Shown here piece by piece: positions 10,205 to 32,609 of a stretch of DNA of 32,609 nucleotides. The first letter of the stretch is position 1, and every line of letters starts with the position of its first letter. The DNA is taken from the IMG/VR virus record IMGVR_UViG_3300045135_000724, positions 1-32,609 of that record. One strand, 5' to 3'. The stretch comes from a virus. A model generated the notes under the pieces. The model made no database searches and was not told where the DNA came from. It saw only the letters and a program-made list of their open reading frames with translations. Made by a program: the position numbers and the translations under genes.

Positions 10205-12451
10205 TTAGTTAAATCCAGAATCTACTGCTTGTGCACCTGTACCATATAATGGATCTCCAATAGTTGGTGGGGTTGCATAATTAATAGAACCACTTGATAT
10301 AATTTTTCTAGGAGCAATTAAAACATGTAAGAATCCCATATTATTAATTGGTTGTGAAGATGTACCTTGGAAACTTGTACTACTATATGAAGCAGTATTT
10401 ACAAAATCAAAAGCACTAAATGTTGTTGGATTTGCGTTAGTAGTAACTTTTCCCCAGATAGCATATTCCATTGCAGAATTTACCGGAGTAGTACCACCAT
10501 TGCCGTTATAACTTAACTCGAAAGTTGAAGAGAACCAACTTAAACCTGTTAGATTAACAGCAACATTAGACATATCTACTTCACCAACTACTGTAATGCT
10601 TATAGCACCATTATTTGCTGCTGGTACAGTAAACGGATCTACTTGAATTTGACCATTAATAGTGGTTGTAGGAGTTATAACAGGACTACCTACAAAATTA
10701 TATCCAGGTGTATTTACTGTAAGACTAGAATTACTTCCATATTCATATCCTGAAACCATTGTAATTGTATAGAATGTATTCCCGGTCGATCTAACTAAAT
10801 ATTGTGGTTGACCTAATGTTTGATTAGTTACAGCACCTGCAGTATCATTAATAATAGCATCACCCGTTAAAGCTATTGTATAACTAGCAGTACCTGTATT
10901 AAGTTGTGTGCTACCAGTACTATTATATACAAAATTATATGTTGTATTAACAGTTGGTTGAGTCCAACTTAAAAGTATATTTAATTTAGTATCATCTACA
11001 CTATCAATACCCATATTATTAATTGTAAATCCAGCCGGTGTCGTAGTAAATGAAATATTATTAGTCCATTTATAACCTGTTGGTGCTGAAAGTTGAATAC
11101 TTTCTGTAAATGAACTACCCCCACTTTTAGTTAAAACAATATCTTGATCTGATCCATCTTTAGTATCTAAGAAATTTAAAGTCATAGTAGTGTCTGGTGC
11201 TTGACCAGAACCTGCGTCAGTCCAATACATATCTTCAACACCTAAATAAATAATCTGTGGTAATCTTCTAATTACTATAGAAGAACCAGAAGATTGTTGA
11301 ATAGTATCAAACGCAGTATCTACGCTACCTGTAATATTGTAAGAGCCAGTTACATAACTTGCAGTTAAATCAATATCTGCACCGCCAATCAATGGGGTTG
11401 CATTATTAGTAACTGCAGCAGTACCCTGACCTGCTTGTGAAGCTGCATTATCATCTATTGTGTATGAAAAAGAACATAGATCTGGAGTTTCATAGGTATC
11501 TGTACCATCTGTCCACGTCTTACCATTACAAATATACCAGCCAGCATATTGACCAACACCTGAACCTACTTTAATATGTAATAAATTAGTAGTAGCATCA
11601 ACGCCTTCATTTAATTGCTCTTGTATAAATCTAGAACTATCTTCAAAATAAGAAGGTATCATAGAAATAATAGTACCCACTGGCACTGCACCTCCTAAAT
11701 CTTGAACTGATTTGAATTCAATTTCACCAGATGTATTTTTAGCAACAGCAATCTTATCAGTATCTGGATTACCTGTAGTGATAGTTAATTTACCTTCTAT
11801 ATTTAAATCAGATTCGAAAGTAGCATCTGTAAATATTGTAGAACCTGTTGGAGTAACTGTTAATAAGTCATCTTGTGCAGAATTCTTAATATTAAAAGAA
11901 TTTGTTTCATAAACAACTGAATTAGGTGGTAACTGTCCTTGAATATCATCAGAATCTGAAAAATACATTCTAAGATCACCTGCATTATCTAACTGAAAAT
12001 GAAATGCAGAATCTACACCGTTAGCTTCTAATTTAAGATTAGAAGTTGATTCGCTATCATATCTATGAATTACTAATTGAGAACTACCCTCAGGCATCTG
12101 ATATTCTGGAGCATCAGATTTATAACCAATAACCACAGCAGGCGGATTTTCACCAGTTTCATGTTTAGGTATTAGCGTATCGACACTTCCAGGAATGCCT
12201 GAATCTTCTTGTATTAAATACCAATATTGACCAGCAGCAGCCCCAGTAGGACCTTGAACACCTTGAGCACCTGTAAGACCAATAGGACCTTGAAATCCCA
12301 TAGTTCCTTGTGCACCTTGATTACCAGTAACACCGATAGGACCCTGTGGACCACCACCGTTAGTTACTAATTGATCAAAGTTATAATTAACTTTATCTAA
12401 TTTAATCTGATCAGAATCAGTATAAGATATTTGTTTTAAATTTAGTGCCAT
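10205..12451 (-). CDS. Tail fibre with collagen-like stem and tail-collar domain (fibre 1)
   Basis: A receptor-binding or short-tail-fibre-type protein of 748 residues. An N-terminal motif DKVNYNFDQL (19-28) probably attaches it to the virion. Then comes a collagen-like stem of 12 Gly-X-Y triplets (34-69), which implies a trimer. A beta region follows, then a tail-collar-like domain (~255-335) with PVGTIISMIPSYF, GWYICNGKTWTD and TPDLCSFSYTID, comparable to T4 gp12. IIYLGVEDMYWTD (400-412) follows. The C-terminal ~330 residues are two similar beta-sandwich modules (around GYKW, 459-462, and GYEY, 568-571) and a final head. The domain order matches the neighbouring fibre up to ~412, after which they differ. 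No chaperone is seen nearby. Confidence 0.8.
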   Translation of the reverse strand: MALNLKQISYTDSDQIKLDKVNYNFDQLVTNGGGPQGPIGVTGNQGAQGTMGFQGPIGLTGAQGVQGPTGAAAGQYWYLIQEDSGIPGSVDTLIPKHETGENPPAVVIGYKSDAPEYQMPEGSSQLVIHRYDSESTSNLKLEANGVDSAFHFQLDNAGDLRMYFSDSDDIQGQLPPNSVVYETNSFNIKNSAQDDLLTVTPTGSTIFTDATFESDLNIEGKLTITTGNPDTDKIAVAKNTSGEIEFKSVQDLGGAVPVGTIISMIPSYFEDSSRFIQEQLNEGVDATTNLLHIKVGSGVGQYAGWYICNGKTWTDGTDTYETPDLCSFSYTIDDNAASQAGQGTAAVTNNATPLIGGADIDLTASYVTGSYNITGSVDTAFDTIQQSSGSSIVIRRLPQIIYLGVEDMYWTDAGSGQAPDTTMTLNFLDTKDGSDQDIVLTKSGGSSFTESIQLSAPTGYKWTNNISFTTTPAGFTINNMGIDSVDDTKLNILLSWTQPTVNTTYNFVYNSTGSTQLNTGTASYTIALTGDAIINDTAGAVTNQTLGQPQYLVRSTGNTFYTITMVSGYEYGSNSSLTVNTPGYNFVGSPVITPTTTINGQIQVDPFTVPAANNGAISITVVGEVDMSNVAVNLTGLSWFSSTFELSYNGNGGTTPVNSAMEYAIWGKVTTNANPTTFSAFDFVNTASYSSTSFQGTSSQPINNMGFLHVLIAPRKIISSGSINYATPPTIGDPLYGTGAQAVDSGFN
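12245..12352 (-). repeat. Collagen-like repeat of fibre 1, 12 Gly-X-Y triplets
   Basis: Twelve uninterrupted Gly-X-Y triplets are encoded here (residues 34-69), with P, Q, T and V favoured at X and Y. Such stretches form triple helices in trimeric phage fibres. The repeat sits directly after the NYNF attachment motif. Confidence 0.9.
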
Positions 12452-12462
12452 GAAACTTCTGC

Positions 12463-12470
12463 TATTTATT
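12463..12470 (-). promoter_or_regulatory. Possible late promoter box (AATAAATA) before fibre 1
   Basis: Minus-strand AATAAATA lies 12 bases before the fibre 1 ATG in the 53-base gap between the fibre genes. It matches the T4 late box TATAAATA in seven of eight bases, and the looser form NATAAATA reported for cyanophages. The start site would leave a leader of only a few bases, and in such AT-rich DNA the match could be chance. Confidence 0.2.
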
Positions 12471-12504
12471 GTATATATTTGCTTTTTATTATTAATTTAA
12501 TTCC

Positions 12505-14640
12505 TTAAAAACAAGTTTGAGGTGGATATATTTTAGAGTTTGATTGAATTGCAGCTCTAAAATCAGCTGTATCTAATAGACCATTGTATGGTTGATATTG
12601 GCCATCTGCATTCTGAGACCTTACCGTAACTAATGGATGTACTTTAGGTGTTGTTCCAATCCAACCTTCATGCACGTAAACTGTAGCACCGTTATTATAA
12701 ACTGAGTATAAATCACTTAAACCGCTTAATGCAAATATTGTATTAGTACCTGCATATAATTCATGAATATCATTAGTACTTACACATATATCGTATGATG
12801 TCCCCATTGAAAATTCAACTTCACCAATGTGTATAATGTAACTAAAGGTTATAGCGTCTCCTACAAATTGTGTACCGTCCCAATATCTTCTAGCACCATT
12901 ACTATTATTAGTCTCTTTATACCAACCAGCAGTTGCGTTAAACCCAAAGCTATTTAATAATGTAGTTGCAAATTTAAAGCTAGTATCATCTATTGTATAA
13001 CTAGAACCAGAAGAAACTGTACCATTTAGTAAAGTTACATCTTGATTATAACCTAATTGTATTGTTTGTTGAACTGGACATGGCGCAACTAAAGTAAACG
13101 CTGAGCCGTTCCAATATCTAGCTACATTATCTTTGGCATACCATTTAACAGCAGCTGGAGTACTATTAGCGTTATATAAAATAACGTTGGTTAAATCTTC
13201 TTGGGTATTAGACCATGTTTTACCAATCCCAGTCCAAATAAATTCGCTAATAGAAGCAGCACATGCATTAGTAGAATCTGTACTAGGCCCTGCTAAATAA
13301 ATACTTTCAGTTGGTGTTGGAGTAACGCCGCTTGTATCATTCCACGTTAGATCATTCTGACCTAAATAAGCTATATGAATATTTCTAGTCATATAAAAAT
13401 CAGATCCTAAATTGTAATCTAATTGAATAGATTCATCGCTATATGTAGCTTCTTGTATTACTGTGTAATTATCAACAGTTGCAGTTCCAGTATATTCAGC
13501 ATCGTTTAATAAACCAATACCACCTATTAGCACTACATCGCCATCGCCGCCAGATGTTGGAACTTGTCCATTGTTATTTGCATCTATTTGATATTCAAAA
13601 TTATTTAAGTTAGGTACGTTGAATTCTAAAACATTGTTTGAATCTGTCCATGTTTGACCATTACATAAATACCACCCCTCATATTTAGTACCCTGTTTAC
13701 CGGCACCGTATCTTATGTTTAAGAAACCTCTGTTAGATTCAGCAGAAGATAAAAATTCATTTAAATAAAAATTATTAGTATTAAATTCATTAGCTGTAAT
13801 TGCAATAATAGAACCTTCTGGGAATGTACCAATAATTTCATGTTTTAATCTCCATGATGTTTCACCGGTAGTATTATCAGCAGCTAAAACCATCCCAGTA
13901 CTTGGGTTATTCTTATAATTAACGGTACCATTAGCGACAACATCTGATTGAGATACTGTTGTATCACTTGATATTGTTAAACCAGCTGATTTAGCATTAC
14001 TTGGATTTAATGTTAAATATTCGCCGTCTGTGGAATCTTCTAAAGTTAGATAGTCTAATCTTTGATTTATTTTACCATCTGATTTTATAATCATAAAATC
14101 ATCTCCAGCGCTCTCTAAATTAATATAAGATCTTTTACCTAGACCTTCTGCTATCTCTGTTCTAAATTCTATATTGTTCTTTGCTATATCTTGTACATAA
14201 GAAATAAAAACACCATCATTTACTCTAACAGGTGCATTAACAGAATATGCTTCATCGGGAGTACCATCACCGTCTATATCTACAGTACTTGTAATAAAGT
14301 CACTAAAAACAACTCTAATAGCCGTGATTTCATCTACAGATGGACCATTATATTTAGGCATTAAAGTTACATTTCTTTCATCAGAAACTATATGCCATGG
14401 CTCATCAGCTGCAATTCCTTGAGGACCTTGAAAACCTTGTACTCCAACAGGACCTTGAAAACCTTGTACACCCCTATCACCAAAATCACCTGAATATCCA
14501 GTACTACCTTGTGGCCCTTGAGGTCCACCTAATATAAGTTGATTAAAGTTATAATTAAGTTTATCAACCTTAGAGTCAGCCCACCATATAGTACTGTTTG
14601 GGTCTAGATCTGATTTAAATATTTCTTTGATATCTAACAT
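12505..14640 (-). CDS. Tail fibre with collagen-like stem, collar domain and repeat tip (fibre 2)
   Basis: A 711-residue relative of the neighbouring fibre. The order is: attachment motif DKLNYNFNQL (26-35), 12 Gly-X-Y triplets (39-74), a beta region, then a collar domain (~272-352) with FPEGSIIAI, GWYLCNGQTWTD and VPNLNNFEYQID. IHIAYLGQNDLTWND (421-435) is also shared with fibre 1. The tip (~455-711) is different. It carries two similar modules, KWYAKDNVARYWNGSAF (499-515) and GWYKETNNSNGARRYWDGTQF (572-592), and cysteine-bearing stretches (STNACAAS, YDICVSTND) of a kind I associate with surface proteins of Bacteroidota and their phages. It probably binds a host surface glycan or protein. 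The start overlaps the stop of the 1447-residue gene (TAATG). Confidence 0.8.
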   Translation of the reverse strand: MLDIKEIFKSDLDPNSTIWWADSKVDKLNYNFNQLILGGPQGPQGSTGYSGDFGDRGVQGFQGPVGVQGFQGPQGIAADEPWHIVSDERNVTLMPKYNGPSVDEITAIRVVFSDFITSTVDIDGDGTPDEAYSVNAPVRVNDGVFISYVQDIAKNNIEFRTEIAEGLGKRSYINLESAGDDFMIIKSDGKINQRLDYLTLEDSTDGEYLTLNPSNAKSAGLTISSDTTVSQSDVVANGTVNYKNNPSTGMVLAADNTTGETSWRLKHEIIGTFPEGSIIAITANEFNTNNFYLNEFLSSAESNRGFLNIRYGAGKQGTKYEGWYLCNGQTWTDSNNVLEFNVPNLNNFEYQIDANNNGQVPTSGGDGDVVLIGGIGLLNDAEYTGTATVDNYTVIQEATYSDESIQLDYNLGSDFYMTRNIHIAYLGQNDLTWNDTSGVTPTPTESIYLAGPSTDSTNACAASISEFIWTGIGKTWSNTQEDLTNVILYNANSTPAAVKWYAKDNVARYWNGSAFTLVAPCPVQQTIQLGYNQDVTLLNGTVSSGSSYTIDDTSFKFATTLLNSFGFNATAGWYKETNNSNGARRYWDGTQFVGDAITFSYIIHIGEVEFSMGTSYDICVSTNDIHELYAGTNTIFALSGLSDLYSVYNNGATVYVHEGWIGTTPKVHPLVTVRSQNADGQYQPYNGLLDTADFRAAIQSNSKIYPPQTCF
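14419..14526 (-). repeat. Collagen-like repeat of fibre 2, 12 Gly-X-Y triplets
   Basis: Residues 39-74 are twelve Gly-X-Y triplets, including a repeated GVQGFQGP unit at ~57-64 and ~66-73. The triplet count equals that of fibre 1, although the residues differ. Confidence 0.9.
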
Positions 14641-27903: not shown

Positions 27904-28172
27904 TATTTAGTTCTTGTATCGTCCTTTCTAGTAGTATATGATTTATACTTTTTTAAAAATGCAACAGAATCAATAAGATCTGCTAGCACATGTTGCACCA
28001 TAATTACAAAGTCATTCATCTGTGGGTTTCTGTAAATATATGGTGAGATTGAATTACGTAAAACATTCTCACGATATTTATTGCCCTCATTTTTGCGGTC
28101 ATCTACAGCTTGACGTTTTACATCATATAGTCTAACCTGTCTTGACTTAAATAAATTCTTTAAGTTTGCCAT
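27903..28172 (-). CDS. Small basic protein between gp6 and the gp7-like gene
   Basis: An 89-residue, mostly basic and helical protein of unknown function. The N-terminal half is rich in Lys/Arg (NLFKSRQVRLYDVKRQAVDD, ~6-25). The centre is IYRNPQMNDFVIMVQHVLADLIDSVAFLKKY (~46-76), a hydrophobic helix that looks like a protein-contact surface rather than a membrane span. It shares TAATG-type one-base overlaps with both neighbours, so it is part of the wedge gene series and likely a small wedge or assembly factor. T4 gp53 is a small wedge protein but longer (196), and I see no likeness. Confidence 0.6.
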   Translation of the reverse strand: MANLKNLFKSRQVRLYDVKRQAVDDRKNEGNKYRENVLRNSISPYIYRNPQMNDFVIMVQHVLADLIDSVAFLKKYKSYTTRKDDTRTK

Positions 28173-29992
28173 TATAGCGCTTTTCTATTTTTAGCTTGAA
28201 TTTTTGTGAATACTGTGTTAGGAACTGCAGGTTCATCAAAGTAAATTGAAAGTGCAGCCATTTCACCTAATTTAGCATCATCTAAAACTTCAGCATTATC
28301 TCTATCATGCCAGCCACCTCTAAATAATGCAACTTCTTCACGCTCTAAAATAATATCACCGAACGAATCTAGATTGATTACATTTTCAGGAAGTGCAGCA
28401 CCCGGTTCAAAGTTAACTTTTCTCTCAGTTATGTTTCTTTTAAAGAATACATATTTTTGCTTGCCGTTGCCAATGTCTTCAAGAACCGGTGTTGATGGAG
28501 TTACTGTAACAGTTTTAGATATGTAATAACCGTTTCTACGAGCATCTTCTTCTACTTTAGATACAAACCTTACGTTTACAGAATCAATACCCTCAATAGC
28601 TTCTAAAAGAGCGATGATATCTGATTTAGGTAAACGGTCTCTTCTTGTAATATTCATTAAATATTCTGAAATCCTTGCTCTAATTTCAGAGTATAATGTT
28701 TGTTTGCTATAACCTTCAAAATATCTAACCTTCACATCCATTCTAAAATATTGAACCTGTGGATCAACTATTTTAACTTCAGTAGTTACCATTTGTTGGC
28801 CTGAATTTTCTAATAAAGATAAGATACCTAATTTTTCTTCGTTAGAGAAAAAGAACTCATCTAATTCTAAATTAAAATAATCTTTATTATTAGTTAATTT
28901 TCTTTTTGCATCTGGTAACATGAATAAGTAAATCACATTATCATCATCAATATAACCATCATCTGTTGTGTTATAAGCATCTAAATATGAGAACATACCG
29001 TATCTTGAAAGGAAGTGCTCATAGTTGTTCGGTGTAGCTAATACGAATGAATGTGATTGTAATGGTGCAATAAGCTTAGTTAACTCAGTTGACTCTGGAT
29101 TAGCACCCATTCTTGGCGCAACTGTAAATGATGCTTCTAGTAATTCATTTAAGTCATATTCAGATCCTAGCGGATCAAATCCTAAAGTTTGGAATAAGAA
29201 TGTTAAATCTTTAGAACCTGTTAAATTACCTAAAGCACCTTCGTGCAATAAGTATTCAATTTCGATTGAAGCCCCAGATCGTGGAACCATACCAAACGAA
29301 TCATTACCAAAATAAACATCTAATCCACCAGAAATACCTGTCTTAACTAAATAACCTTTAGTATCTGCTTTCATATCATATAAAGAATCATACTTAGTCC
29401 ATAATTCACTGTTTACATAAACTCTAACATGATTATGATCAGTCATACCTTTAATTTGAATATTAAATGACTGTAAAGCCTCTCCAGTACCTGTAACTGT
29501 TTGTGATTCTAACTTACCCTGTACTACAGGGATATAAATGTATTCTGCATTTGACTTTTCGATTCTAAATAATTCATTGTTAGTTCTTAAGATATATTCT
29601 AGGCCGTTAGTATTTGACTTAATTACCGTGTTTCTTGGAAAAGAAATTGAATCACCACCGATTTCATTAAATGCAGTTACATTTAGTCTTAGTTTAATTT
29701 CACCATTTGCAGATGAACCTCTAAATGCATCATGCCCTGCAAGTCTAGATAAACCATAAATAGACTCAGGTTGTTGAGCTGTTAAAATGTTTTGTTCAAC
29801 TGTAGCGTTTTCAATATAATAGAAGATCATCTTTGTAATTTCAGAAAGAACTTCTAAGATCTGTGAAAACGGCGATGCAGTTGTAAATAATTCACTTGTT
29901 CTGCCATATAAACGAGCAATGTACGACCTAGTGTCGTCTAACATCTCATTAGCTTTAACTCTTGTAGCAGATAAAAATTTAAATTCGGCCAT
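28172..29992 (-). CDS. 6: Baseplate wedge protein gp6-like (Baseplate_J)
   Basis: gp6 dimers form the inner ring that holds the wedges together and drives baseplate opening. The 606-residue protein (T4: 660) begins with a helical region, SPFSQILEVLSEITKMIFYYIENATVEQNI (~40-69), followed by ESIYGLSRLAGHDAFRGSSANGEI (~75-98), the typical gpJ/gp6 start. A beta domain with NTVIKSNTNGLEYILRTNNE fits the Baseplate_J core. The C-terminal half has the repeated alpha/beta fold (VKIVDPQVQYFRMDVKVRYFEGYSK, TRRDRLPKSDIIALLEAIEGIDSVNV), as in J proteins. It lies 16 bases after gp25, the same neighbours as in simple contractile tails. The call is strong on order and motifs together. Confidence 0.85.
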   Translation of the reverse strand: MAEFKFLSATRVKANEMLDDTRSYIARLYGRTSELFTTASPFSQILEVLSEITKMIFYYIENATVEQNILTAQQPESIYGLSRLAGHDAFRGSSANGEIKLRLNVTAFNEIGGDSISFPRNTVIKSNTNGLEYILRTNNELFRIEKSNAEYIYIPVVQGKLESQTVTGTGEALQSFNIQIKGMTDHNHVRVYVNSELWTKYDSLYDMKADTKGYLVKTGISGGLDVYFGNDSFGMVPRSGASIEIEYLLHEGALGNLTGSKDLTFLFQTLGFDPLGSEYDLNELLEASFTVAPRMGANPESTELTKLIAPLQSHSFVLATPNNYEHFLSRYGMFSYLDAYNTTDDGYIDDDNVIYLFMLPDAKRKLTNNKDYFNLELDEFFFSNEEKLGILSLLENSGQQMVTTEVKIVDPQVQYFRMDVKVRYFEGYSKQTLYSEIRARISEYLMNITRRDRLPKSDIIALLEAIEGIDSVNVRFVSKVEEDARRNGYYISKTVTVTPSTPVLEDIGNGKQKYVFFKRNITERKVNFEPGAALPENVINLDSFGDIILEREEVALFRGGWHDRDNAEVLDDAKLGEMAALSIYFDEPAVPNTVFTKIQAKNRKAL

Positions 29993-30008: not shown

Positions 30009-30362
30009 TTATACGTAAACACCTAATTGATATTTAGAATCAACTGTAATGTCAACAAATATAATATGTCTATCAACCTCATCCGCTGTTTCAATGTTAA
30101 CAGAAACTGGATATTTTCTAGATAGCGGTACATATCTTTTAATTTGACGATCTATTGCATTTTTTAATAGATAATCATTATATCTTAATTCATATACGTA
30201 ATCTTCTAGGTTACAACCAAAATCAGGGTTGCCTAAAACAGAACCCTTTGTTGTAAACAAAATAGTCTCTAGCTGTGTTAACAACATAGAGATATCATCA
30301 TCTTGCTGGAGCTTAGATGGCTTAAAATTAGGGTCTACTAAAGATCTTACGTAAAATTCCAT
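30009..30362 (-). CDS. 25: Baseplate wedge protein gp25 (GPW/gp25 family)
   Basis: gp25 is the conserved small wedge protein that seeds sheath assembly at the baseplate; the old name lysozyme-like reflects the fold and does not imply activity. Here 117 residues (T4: 132) carry the family core: ISMLLTQLETILFTTKGSVLGNPDFGCNLEDYVYEL (~24-59), with the diagnostic run of TKG, NPDFG and LEDYVYE, then a helix (LLKNAIDRQIKRYVPL) and strands VSVNIETADEVDRHIIFVDITV. The gene starts 16 bases after the 276-residue gene and ends 16 bases before gp6, the gp25-gp6 order found in most contractile tails. Confidence 0.92.
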   Translation of the reverse strand: MEFYVRSLVDPNFKPSKLQQDDDISMLLTQLETILFTTKGSVLGNPDFGCNLEDYVYELRYNDYLLKNAIDRQIKRYVPLSRKYPVSVNIETADEVDRHIIFVDITVDSKYQLGVYV

Positions 30363-30378
30363 ATAACTATATATTTAC

Positions 30379-31209
30379 TTATGAATGCATCATCCAGTCT
30401 GTGCCTTCATCAGATTTAATTTCTTCAATTACAGCTTCTAATTCAGATTCACCCATACCCTGTACGGCATCTGGATTAATTTGAATGTTACCTGGTAAAT
30501 TATAACCGAATATTGAAAGCTTCTGACCTAAAGAAACTTTGATCTTAGCTGAACAGTATCTAAAGAATGCTTCATCCTGGAATAATGCACATTCTGGAAC
30601 TGTCTCGTAAATTTCTAAGACAATGTCTTTCTTAGGTGTTTCACCAGTAAACTTTAATTCATGTGTTAACTGATTGTAGTGGTAGCTGATTGGATTTTGA
30701 ATGATCTGACGAGCTAGATCATAAAACTTTTCTTGTACAACATACATTTGTAGGTTTTCTGCAGCTGCCGCTGTATGTGTACCCGAATACATGTTATTCA
30801 TTAATATTCTTTCGTAAGAGAAATCACCTTGTGTAAAGTTAATATCATTTGTTGCGCCCCATCTTGAACCAGTTTCAAAAACACCGTAAACAGAGTAAAT
30901 CTCGTTACCACCTGTAACTGGATCCATCCCTGGAAGTGTAAATGATCTGTTAGCTTTAAAATATGCAGTATCAAACATAGCCGCTGGTAAAACAGCGAAC
31001 GATTCTTTCATTGCATACTCGTAATTCTTATAGAACCATTTCTTAGCTCTTTTAATAATATTTAAAACTTCTTTCTTTGGTAAGTTCATTGGAATCATAC
31101 AAGAACCTGTAACATCATCAGCTAATTCCGTCACAAATTCGTTAAGACACTCTGAACTAAATTGAGGATCTTGTGCCCAATCATCATTACCTACAAAAAT
31201 ATTGCTCAT
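30379..31209 (-). CDS. Virion structural protein of neck/adaptor style (276 residues)
   Basis: I cannot name it with certainty. The N-terminal SNIFVGNDDWAQDPQFSSE is followed by MIPMNLPKKEVLNIIKRAKKWFYKNYEYAMKESFAVLP (~38-75). This helix pattern (Pro, then a helix with aromatic pairs WFY.NYE.A..E) recurs in small structural proteins near the neck or tail completion genes of many phages. The middle is beta-rich (FTLPGMDPVTGGNEIYSVYGVF), then an alanine stretch (THTAAAAENLQMYVVQEKFYDLA) and a second alpha/beta part (DIVLEIYETVPECALFQDEAFFRYCSAKIK). It lies between the amidoligase gene and gp25. It may be a neck, tail-terminator or adaptor protein. Confidence 0.5.
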   Translation of the reverse strand: MSNIFVGNDDWAQDPQFSSECLNEFVTELADDVTGSCMIPMNLPKKEVLNIIKRAKKWFYKNYEYAMKESFAVLPAAMFDTAYFKANRSFTLPGMDPVTGGNEIYSVYGVFETGSRWGATNDINFTQGDFSYERILMNNMYSGTHTAAAAENLQMYVVQEKFYDLARQIIQNPISYHYNQLTHELKFTGETPKKDIVLEIYETVPECALFQDEAFFRYCSAKIKVSLGQKLSIFGYNLPGNIQINPDAVQGMGESELEAVIEEIKSDEGTDWMMHS

Positions 31210-31225
31210 CTTTATATTTTATTTT

Positions 31226-32521
31226 TTAAACTTCTTTGTATAACACTTTTTCAACATTATCGTCGAATTGTGCCTTTCTTTTATCGTAGCGACCTTCTCT
31301 AAAGATTCCACCTTTCATGTTACCTTTTAAAATACCGTCCCCATAAATATAACAATCTCTTAAGTGACAGCTTTCGTGTACATAAGAGCTTTTAACTTTA
31401 GATGAATTAATCTGACAAGACCTATAAAAATTACATTCATTAATGTCTGAGCCATTTACATCACATCTAAAGAAGTCACAATATGTAAATTCACCCCTAA
31501 CAGAGCAATTTACAAAATCATAACCAATAAGATCTACACAGTACATTAATGAACCATCGTTAACCTGAACTTTACCAGTATCTGAATCATAGTTAATATG
31601 GCCTTTAGTTATTTGGCCATGCGTAAACAACTTCATTACTTGTTCTCTAACGTTTGCCCAGTAAATATCAATAATCCTTGGATCGTCTTTTAAATCAACT
31701 GTAAATTGAATGTCTTTCCAACCTTTAGAGATATTTCTCCAGTCTTGTCTTGAATCAATAATTCTTTGATTATCTGCAAGAATTCTTTTAAGCTCAATTG
31801 CATTAAGCTGTGTAAATTGTGTAGATTCAGTTGATTTCCATAATTGAACTAAAAACTGATCTAGCATGTGTAAGATTGTAGTTGTTTTCTTTTCCCAATC
31901 TTTACCACCTAGATATCTAAACTCTAGGTAATTTTTATGGCGCTTCTCAAAGTTAATGCCATAATACTTAGAATCAGGGTACATAAAGTTCTTTTCATTA
32001 ATTGTTTTACCATCAAAGAAATAAGTATCTTTATTTGGTAAAATAAACTTAATAGACTTTGCATAAGCAGATCCTTCTCTTTGTGGAAATAGCTTATAAA
32101 CCTGATCTTCTTTAAAATCTAAAATGAATTTAAGAACGTTCATTTTAGAAATACGGTACTTATCACCGATTTTGTCTTTGTCGAATGAAAGATTTAAGTG
32201 GATTGATGCTCTATCATTTGTATAACCATTTTCTTGAATCCACTGACAAACTTTAATAATCATTAGCCTTGCACTATAATATGGTTGTGCACCTGTAACT
32301 AATTCCATAAGACCTGCACCACCAGACATATCTGGTTCGATCTTAAATTCATCTGCCGTGACCTCAAAGTCAGAGTGTGCTTTTGTTTCTACTCTAATTT
32401 TTTTGTCTAGAAGTTTGGCCAACTGTTTGCTGGTTTCTTCAATAGGTAAATTAGAGAAGAACTCAAACTCTACACCTACTAGAGCGTTCTTCAGTATTTC
32501 TGAATCATTAAATGTATTCAT
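31226..32521 (-). CDS. Amidoligase-like enzyme with pentapeptide-like C-terminal repeats
   Basis: Amidoligases of the glutamine-synthetase-like fold use ATP to join a carboxylate to an amine, often on peptides or proteins. The N-terminal ~215 residues show the superfamily signature: GVEFEFF (16-22), KIEPDMSGGAGLMELVTG (60-77) with acidic metal/ATP residues, RASIHLNLSF (104-113) and NYLEFRYLGGKDW (197-209). The middle (~215-320) is helical. The C-terminus (325-412) is a cysteine-rich repeat of about five-residue steps: DFVNC, TYCDFFRC, NECNFYRSC, SSYVHESCHLRDC. This resembles pentapeptide repeats that form a right-handed beta-helix. The gene leads the structural block, ending 16 bases before the next gene. 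Activity, substrate and target are unknown; the family call rests on motifs alone. Confidence 0.7.
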   Translation of the reverse strand: MNTFNDSEILKNALVGVEFEFFSNLPIEETSKQLAKLLDKKIRVETKAHSDFEVTADEFKIEPDMSGGAGLMELVTGAQPYYSARLMIIKVCQWIQENGYTNDRASIHLNLSFDKDKIGDKYRISKMNVLKFILDFKEDQVYKLFPQREGSAYAKSIKFILPNKDTYFFDGKTINEKNFMYPDSKYYGINFEKRHKNYLEFRYLGGKDWEKKTTTILHMLDQFLVQLWKSTESTQFTQLNAIELKRILADNQRIIDSRQDWRNISKGWKDIQFTVDLKDDPRIIDIYWANVREQVMKLFTHGQITKGHINYDSDTGKVQVNDGSLMYCVDLIGYDFVNCSVRGEFTYCDFFRCDVNGSDINECNFYRSCQINSSKVKSSYVHESCHLRDCYIYGDGILKGNMKGGIFREGRYDKRKAQFDDNVEKVLYKEV

Positions 32522-32609
32522 TCGCGAATGTATATAAAACTTAAGTTAGTTTATATATTCATCTCATATTAAGATATTATTTGTAATATAATTGCCTAAA
32601 TATTTTTTT
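32522..32609. other. A/T-rich gap at the right edge, no gene seen
   Basis: Eighty-eight bases precede the amidoligase ATG. They contain no complete gene. An open frame reaching a TAA at 32577-32579 could be the end of a gene outside the window, but only ten codons are visible. No clear promoter match is present; a TATATAAAC run around 32550 is only near the T4 late box. Confidence 0.4.

Follow-up and report, generated by a model that had tools for sequence, protein, structure and literature searches.

The gene considered here lies at positions 31226 to 32521, minus strand, of a viral DNA stretch of 32,609 nucleotides (IMG/VR record IMGVR_UViG_3300045135_000724; the window, below, is this whole stretch). 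It is an open reading frame with an ATG start, and its 431-residue product is a glutamine synthetase (GS)-fold amidoligase fused to a C-terminal pentapeptide-repeat beta-helix, as shown by family matches, an AlphaFold2 model and comparison with relatives. The ligase domain covers approximately residues 1-300 (31622..32521; this and all protein segments located below are on the minus strand), as supported by Foldseek comparison with the PDB. Pfam Amidoligase_2 (PF12224) scored 29 bits (cut-off 22), with the alignment confined to residues 13-66, the first third of the Pfam domain, and 33 of 79 relatives matched the same family at E <= 0.01; a PHROGs search with the 431-residue protein gave no match. 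The AlphaFold2 model, built with the 79-member alignment as input, has a pLDDT of 92.5 and a pTM of 0.84. Its best 50 Foldseek matches in the PDB were all glutamine synthetases or their homologues (E from 1.4e-5, probability 1.00), with low TM-scores to GS of about 0.3, which makes the match one of local likeness in fold; many of the viral matches are annotated as amidoligases.

The amidoligase had been claimed in an earlier note on this DNA from the order of its motifs, and these were all located, with conservation counted in 92 members dereplicated at 85% identity. Motif 1, GVEFEFF (residues 16-22; 32456..32476), has E18 and E20 in 91/92 members, the remaining one having a gap; motif 2, DMSGG from residue 64 and MELVTG from residue 72 (residues 64-77; 32291..32332), has D64 and E73 in all 92; motif 3, SIHLNLS (residues 106-112; 32186..32206), has H108 in 90/92 and N110 in 88/92; and motif 4, YLEFRYLGG (residues 198-206; 31904..31930), has E200 and R202 in 92/92. 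Two further stretches, P-x-R...YAKS-x-K (residues 146-158; 32048..32086), with R148, and KYYGINF (residues 185-191; 31949..31969), with K185 and N190, are conserved in these positions in every member, and K131 and G205 are likewise invariant (92/92). The Amidoligase_2 active-site set (ExE, D/E, H, ExR) is thus present and near-invariant, and the motif residues stay so down to about 30% identity. The order ExE, D/E, HxN/H, ExR we take to correspond to the metal- and phosphate-binding positions of GS. The likeness to glutamine synthetase lies in the fold and in the order of the E-x-E, H and E-x-R motifs, whereas identity is only about 12% and the armed ligase has the extra helix; profile comparison from single sequences, with E. 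coli GlnA as the synthetase, yielded no meaningful alignment, so residues are mapped to GS by motif order and fold only. ATP-dependent amide-bond formation by the ligase is accordingly a prediction from sequence and model, although the enzyme class is well supported: family, fold and near-invariant active-site residues were each found, the reverse of the outcomes that had been named beforehand as refuting the assignment (no GS or ATP-grasp profile match, no ligase active site, lost catalytic residues). A GS fold exapted as a non-catalytic structural protein would suit a gene placed among virion genes, but near-invariance of all motif residues over such divergence makes this very improbable.

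The arm, at residues 328-393 (31343..31540), was recognized from model strands, pentad periodicity, exchange among Cys, Ser, Thr and Ala, and Pentapeptide_4 matches in relatives. In the pentad register of residues 334-393, six hydrophobic positions have a small residue two before, a count reached by 24 of 20,000 shuffles, and huge-phage relatives have up to 12/12 pentads within a 60-residue stretch. The window's own protein, searched alone, fell below threshold against the Pfam pentapeptide families; Pentapeptide_4 was matched by 30/79 relatives, and the PDB entries detected by the family profile include MfpA and McbG-like pentapeptide proteins (E 0.0002-0.004). The arm is modeled with short strands approximately every five residues at pLDDT above 90, which fits a quadrilateral beta-helix. 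The armed ligase thus shares with MfpA/Qnr/McbG-like proteins a right-handed pentad helix detectable by sequence, but has only about four coils and is fused to a ligase. The fused helix of the earlier note therefore holds, and its eight cysteines are exactly where placed (328, 339, 348, 353, 363, 369, 385, 390), with one other in the protein, C92. The emphasis on a cysteine-rich repeat does not hold: the arm cysteines occupy the small-residue i-2 position of the pentad, and relatives have Cys, Ser, Thr or Ala in these columns. They are therefore ordinary repeat positions, not conserved as cysteines and without special role. A disulfide or metal site was rejected on the same replacement by Ser, Thr or Ala. 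Beyond the helix is a conserved cap, GGIFREG (residues 404-410; 31292..31312), with the consensus GG[IV]FR-x-G across arm-bearing members and R408 in 89/89 helix-bearing members. A defence-system reading was also rejected, as the PADLOC search gave only a weak partial DrmD match over residues 207-260 (E 0.0004), which was put down to chance, and weak HalA matches were confined to the helix. The product looks like an active amide-bond-forming enzyme permanently joined to a rigid, rod-like arm.

Downstream of the ligase gene, and also on the minus strand, are genes for a neck or head-tail adaptor-like protein (30379..31209; phrog_211, E 2.5e-12), a gp25-like baseplate wedge protein (30009..30362; GPW_gp25 at 1.2e-5, just under cut-off, and phrog_261 at 8e-6) and a gp6/baseplate-J-like wedge protein (28172..29992; phrog_219, E 4.2e-36). 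The source record stops 88 bases upstream of the ligase gene, and its operon position was judged through relatives. Within these 88 bases is a late-promoter-like sequence, GAATATATAAAC (32549..32560, minus strand), corresponding to a [GA]ATATATA motif in the leaders of relatives; the motif was found in 72/88 ligase leaders, as against 45/1760 random 70-mers. It recurs inside, or bordering, short gaps that precede other late genes of the window (30375, 19016, 12479, 6760 and 3718, minus strand), and so may serve phages of this group generally as a late promoter. In printed examples of relatives (e.g., L001, L002) the upstream gene, encoding a ribosomal protein S1-like protein, ends in a terminator-like hairpin, and with the promoter-like motif in the gap between the two genes, the earlier placement of the ligase at the head of an operon is supported; the gene would open a late-type transcription unit, a reading these signals support.

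An imperfect inverted repeat (32526..32560, minus strand), scored by folding z, lies immediately ahead of the start codon and encloses the promoter-like motif. In the window it is weak (z -1.1), in several relatives strong; leader folding z was below -2 in 27/91, reaching -6.6 in L168. The arms vary by lineage yet stay complementary (L168, L172, L176, L180, L195), and candidate roles of the repeat are an operator, a cruciform or a leader hairpin.

Relatives were considered as group A, the close relatives to about 40% identity, and group B, those of huge phages. Group A loci have a nearly constant order of hub, S1-like gene, ligase, neck, gp25 and gp6; the neck gene adjoins the ligase gene in nearly all of them, and the baseplate hub gene is about 3 kb upstream in 88/88. 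The group B ligase gene is mostly not adjacent to the neck gene and its neighbours differ, so that the neck link does not hold universally. Seven of the twelve group B records searched (G010, G012, G013, G015, G016, W02, W05) nevertheless have the ligase no more than about 11 kb away from the hub gene and no more than about 5 kb away from the gene A9; in W01 the distances are about 4-5 kb (hub) and about 10 kb (A9). W03, W04 and G011 have it more than 100 kb from both genes, and G009 gave no match to either. The group A homologue of A9 is about 8-10 kb from the ligase. For the product of A9, a group B neighbour of the ligase, the model is of low confidence (pLDDT 56.8), and the top matches, to baseplate proteins, are non-significant (E 0.18). 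A DHH-family phosphoesterase-like protein adjoins the ligase in many group B loci (L103:9379-11094 and homologues).

The chief argument for a structural target is that linkage to tail genes recurs in two groups whose local gene order differs. It is proposed, tentatively, that the armed ligase acts late and in the cytoplasm as an ATP-dependent amidoligase of proteins or peptides, its helix docking a substrate among the baseplate-linked structural proteins of the phage, a reading that is possible though short of probable. The enzyme would use ATP to activate a carboxylate as an acyl phosphate, which then reacts with an amine. A protein partner may be docked by the rigid helix together with the invariant GG[IV]FR cap; this partner, most likely a tail or baseplate protein of the phage, would become amidated, glutamylated or cross-linked while the virion is still being assembled. 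Support comes from family, fold, near-invariant motifs, low dN/dS, the gene's own promoter motif, conserved gene order and the lack of GATase_6 (see below). Counted against it are the failure to align meaningfully with GlnA, the low GS TM-scores, the non-significant A9 matches and the three records with the ligase far from hub and A9. Phage late operons often include bystander genes, and bystander linkage is the main doubt on a structural-protein target.

GS-fold enzymes are mostly small-molecule ligases, and pentapeptide proteins such as Qnr and MfpA dimerise. On these grounds the ligase could act on polyamines or other small molecules, making for example a glutamyl-polyamine for use in DNA packaging, with the helix serving oligomerisation only. 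Linkage to virion genes and the invariant cap motif suggest a macromolecular partner instead, and no recurrent partner metabolic gene was found in group A; a small substrate is thus considered unlikely.

The S1-like gene offers a different candidate target. Its product is a bS1 homologue, matching E. coli bS1 11-345 at E 2e-62, and the phage proteins have up to four S1 repeats (L183:6643-7926, L082:9559-10728). In nearly all close loci this gene immediately precedes the ligase gene, and 188 loci carry it; in L009, small ORFs and tRNA-like sequences were seen by eye in the gap between the two. RimK, which acts on S6, provides an analogue for an enzyme that would add an amino acid or amine to the neighbouring phage bS1, or to a host ribosomal or translation protein, and so favour late phage translation. 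Consistent with such a role, all five huge phages searched have an S1-like gene, though far from the ligase in four, and Agrobacterium phage Atu_ph07 and Salicola phage SCTP-2, the ligases of which have no helix, also have no S1-like gene. However, the terminator-like hairpin and the separate promoter motif stand between the two genes, four partial records (150-249 kb) have no full-length S1-like gene, and co-occurrence is confounded by shared ancestry. Strict S1-ligase pairing was rejected, as Lak megaphages hold the S1-like gene and no ligase. The link is real as co-occurrence but weakened by separate transcription and by the Lak phages, and the translation apparatus as target appears quite improbable. 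Put more broadly, that a conserved late huge-phage enzyme, guided by its helix, forms amide or isopeptide bonds on one of the phage's own proteins, either bS1 or a tail or baseplate component, seems quite possible, if somewhat short of an even chance.

Phage amidoligases are known from LUZ24-like, phiEco32-like and Pseudoalteromonas phages (PMC3890496, PMC5498523), in cassettes that are early or metabolic and include GATase, GGCT, ATP-grasp and COOH-NH2 ligase (PMC3890496, PMC5498523), and for which a cell-wall role has been proposed (PMC5498523, PMC10580990). Enzymes of the LUZ24/tf/phiEco32/PSA-HP1 type share with the armed ligase the Pfam family PF12224, a GS-type fold and a phage-borne gene. 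By analogy, cell-wall peptide precursors might be remodelled in the cytoplasm for superinfection resistance or timed lysis, and a VanY-domain protein is encoded nearby in 18 group B loci. Against this, GATase_6 was found in none of the 22 large records searched, so that the armed ligase is not the published cassette, and GGACT was found in 4/22, unlinked to the ligase; membership in a phiEco32/LUZ24-type peptidoglycan cassette was rejected for want of linked GATase and GGCT partners. The gene position is moreover late, not early, and a docking helix would be unusual for a small-substrate enzyme. Cell-wall remodelling is thus regarded as distinctly unlikely.

The armed ligase differs from those cassettes in its late virion operon, lack of a GATase partner and fused pentapeptide helix. 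Profile-level homologues in jumbo phages, those of Atu_ph07 (near the portal gene) and SCTP-2 (two tandem amidoligase-like genes, 125 and 124; L087:10846-14606), are armless. A protein of an uncultured Caudovirales phage, A0A6J5PQ40, has the same full-length architecture (TM 0.86) and was deposited as uncharacterized. A search for amidoligase together with pentapeptide repeat found no description of such a fusion in the portions of the literature covered. The novelty for T4-like phages suggested at the outset must be qualified, since phage amidoligases are already known; the fused late-operon form, with no PHROG hit, is a distinct lineage among them.

Relatives are encoded by at least 491 IMG/VR contigs, and the phage collection contributed six uncultured huge-phage records (462-735 kb) as well as Atu_ph07 and SCTP-2. 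The full-length armed ligase occurs exactly once in each of 22/22 large records (145-735 kb), yet has neither a PHROG match nor a description in the literature as covered. The genome search gave two cellular matches only, both on bacterial-bin contigs of less than 6 kb; L249, which has the ligase-neck-gp25-gp6 order, was accordingly regarded as a binned contig of viral origin. In five comparable pairs dN/dS ranged over 0.02-0.06 for the ligase part and, with one value undefined, over 0.04-0.09 for the helix; purifying selection, as estimated from these sequences, is strong in both ligase and arm. The armed ligase is thus a strongly conserved, undescribed late gene of very large phages, among them some of the largest. 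Were it to modify a phage protein, it would constitute a dedicated enzymatic modification step in virion assembly or translation takeover, and enzymatic protein modification would be a core assembly or translation step of huge phages.

For the neck and gp6 proteins of the window, relatives were found in Lak megaphages and in phages of Tenacibaculum, Chryseobacterium and Flavobacterium, which makes a Bacteroidota host likely for the window's phage. Two genes at 10205-14640 of the window have collagen-like stretches resembling tail fibre proteins.
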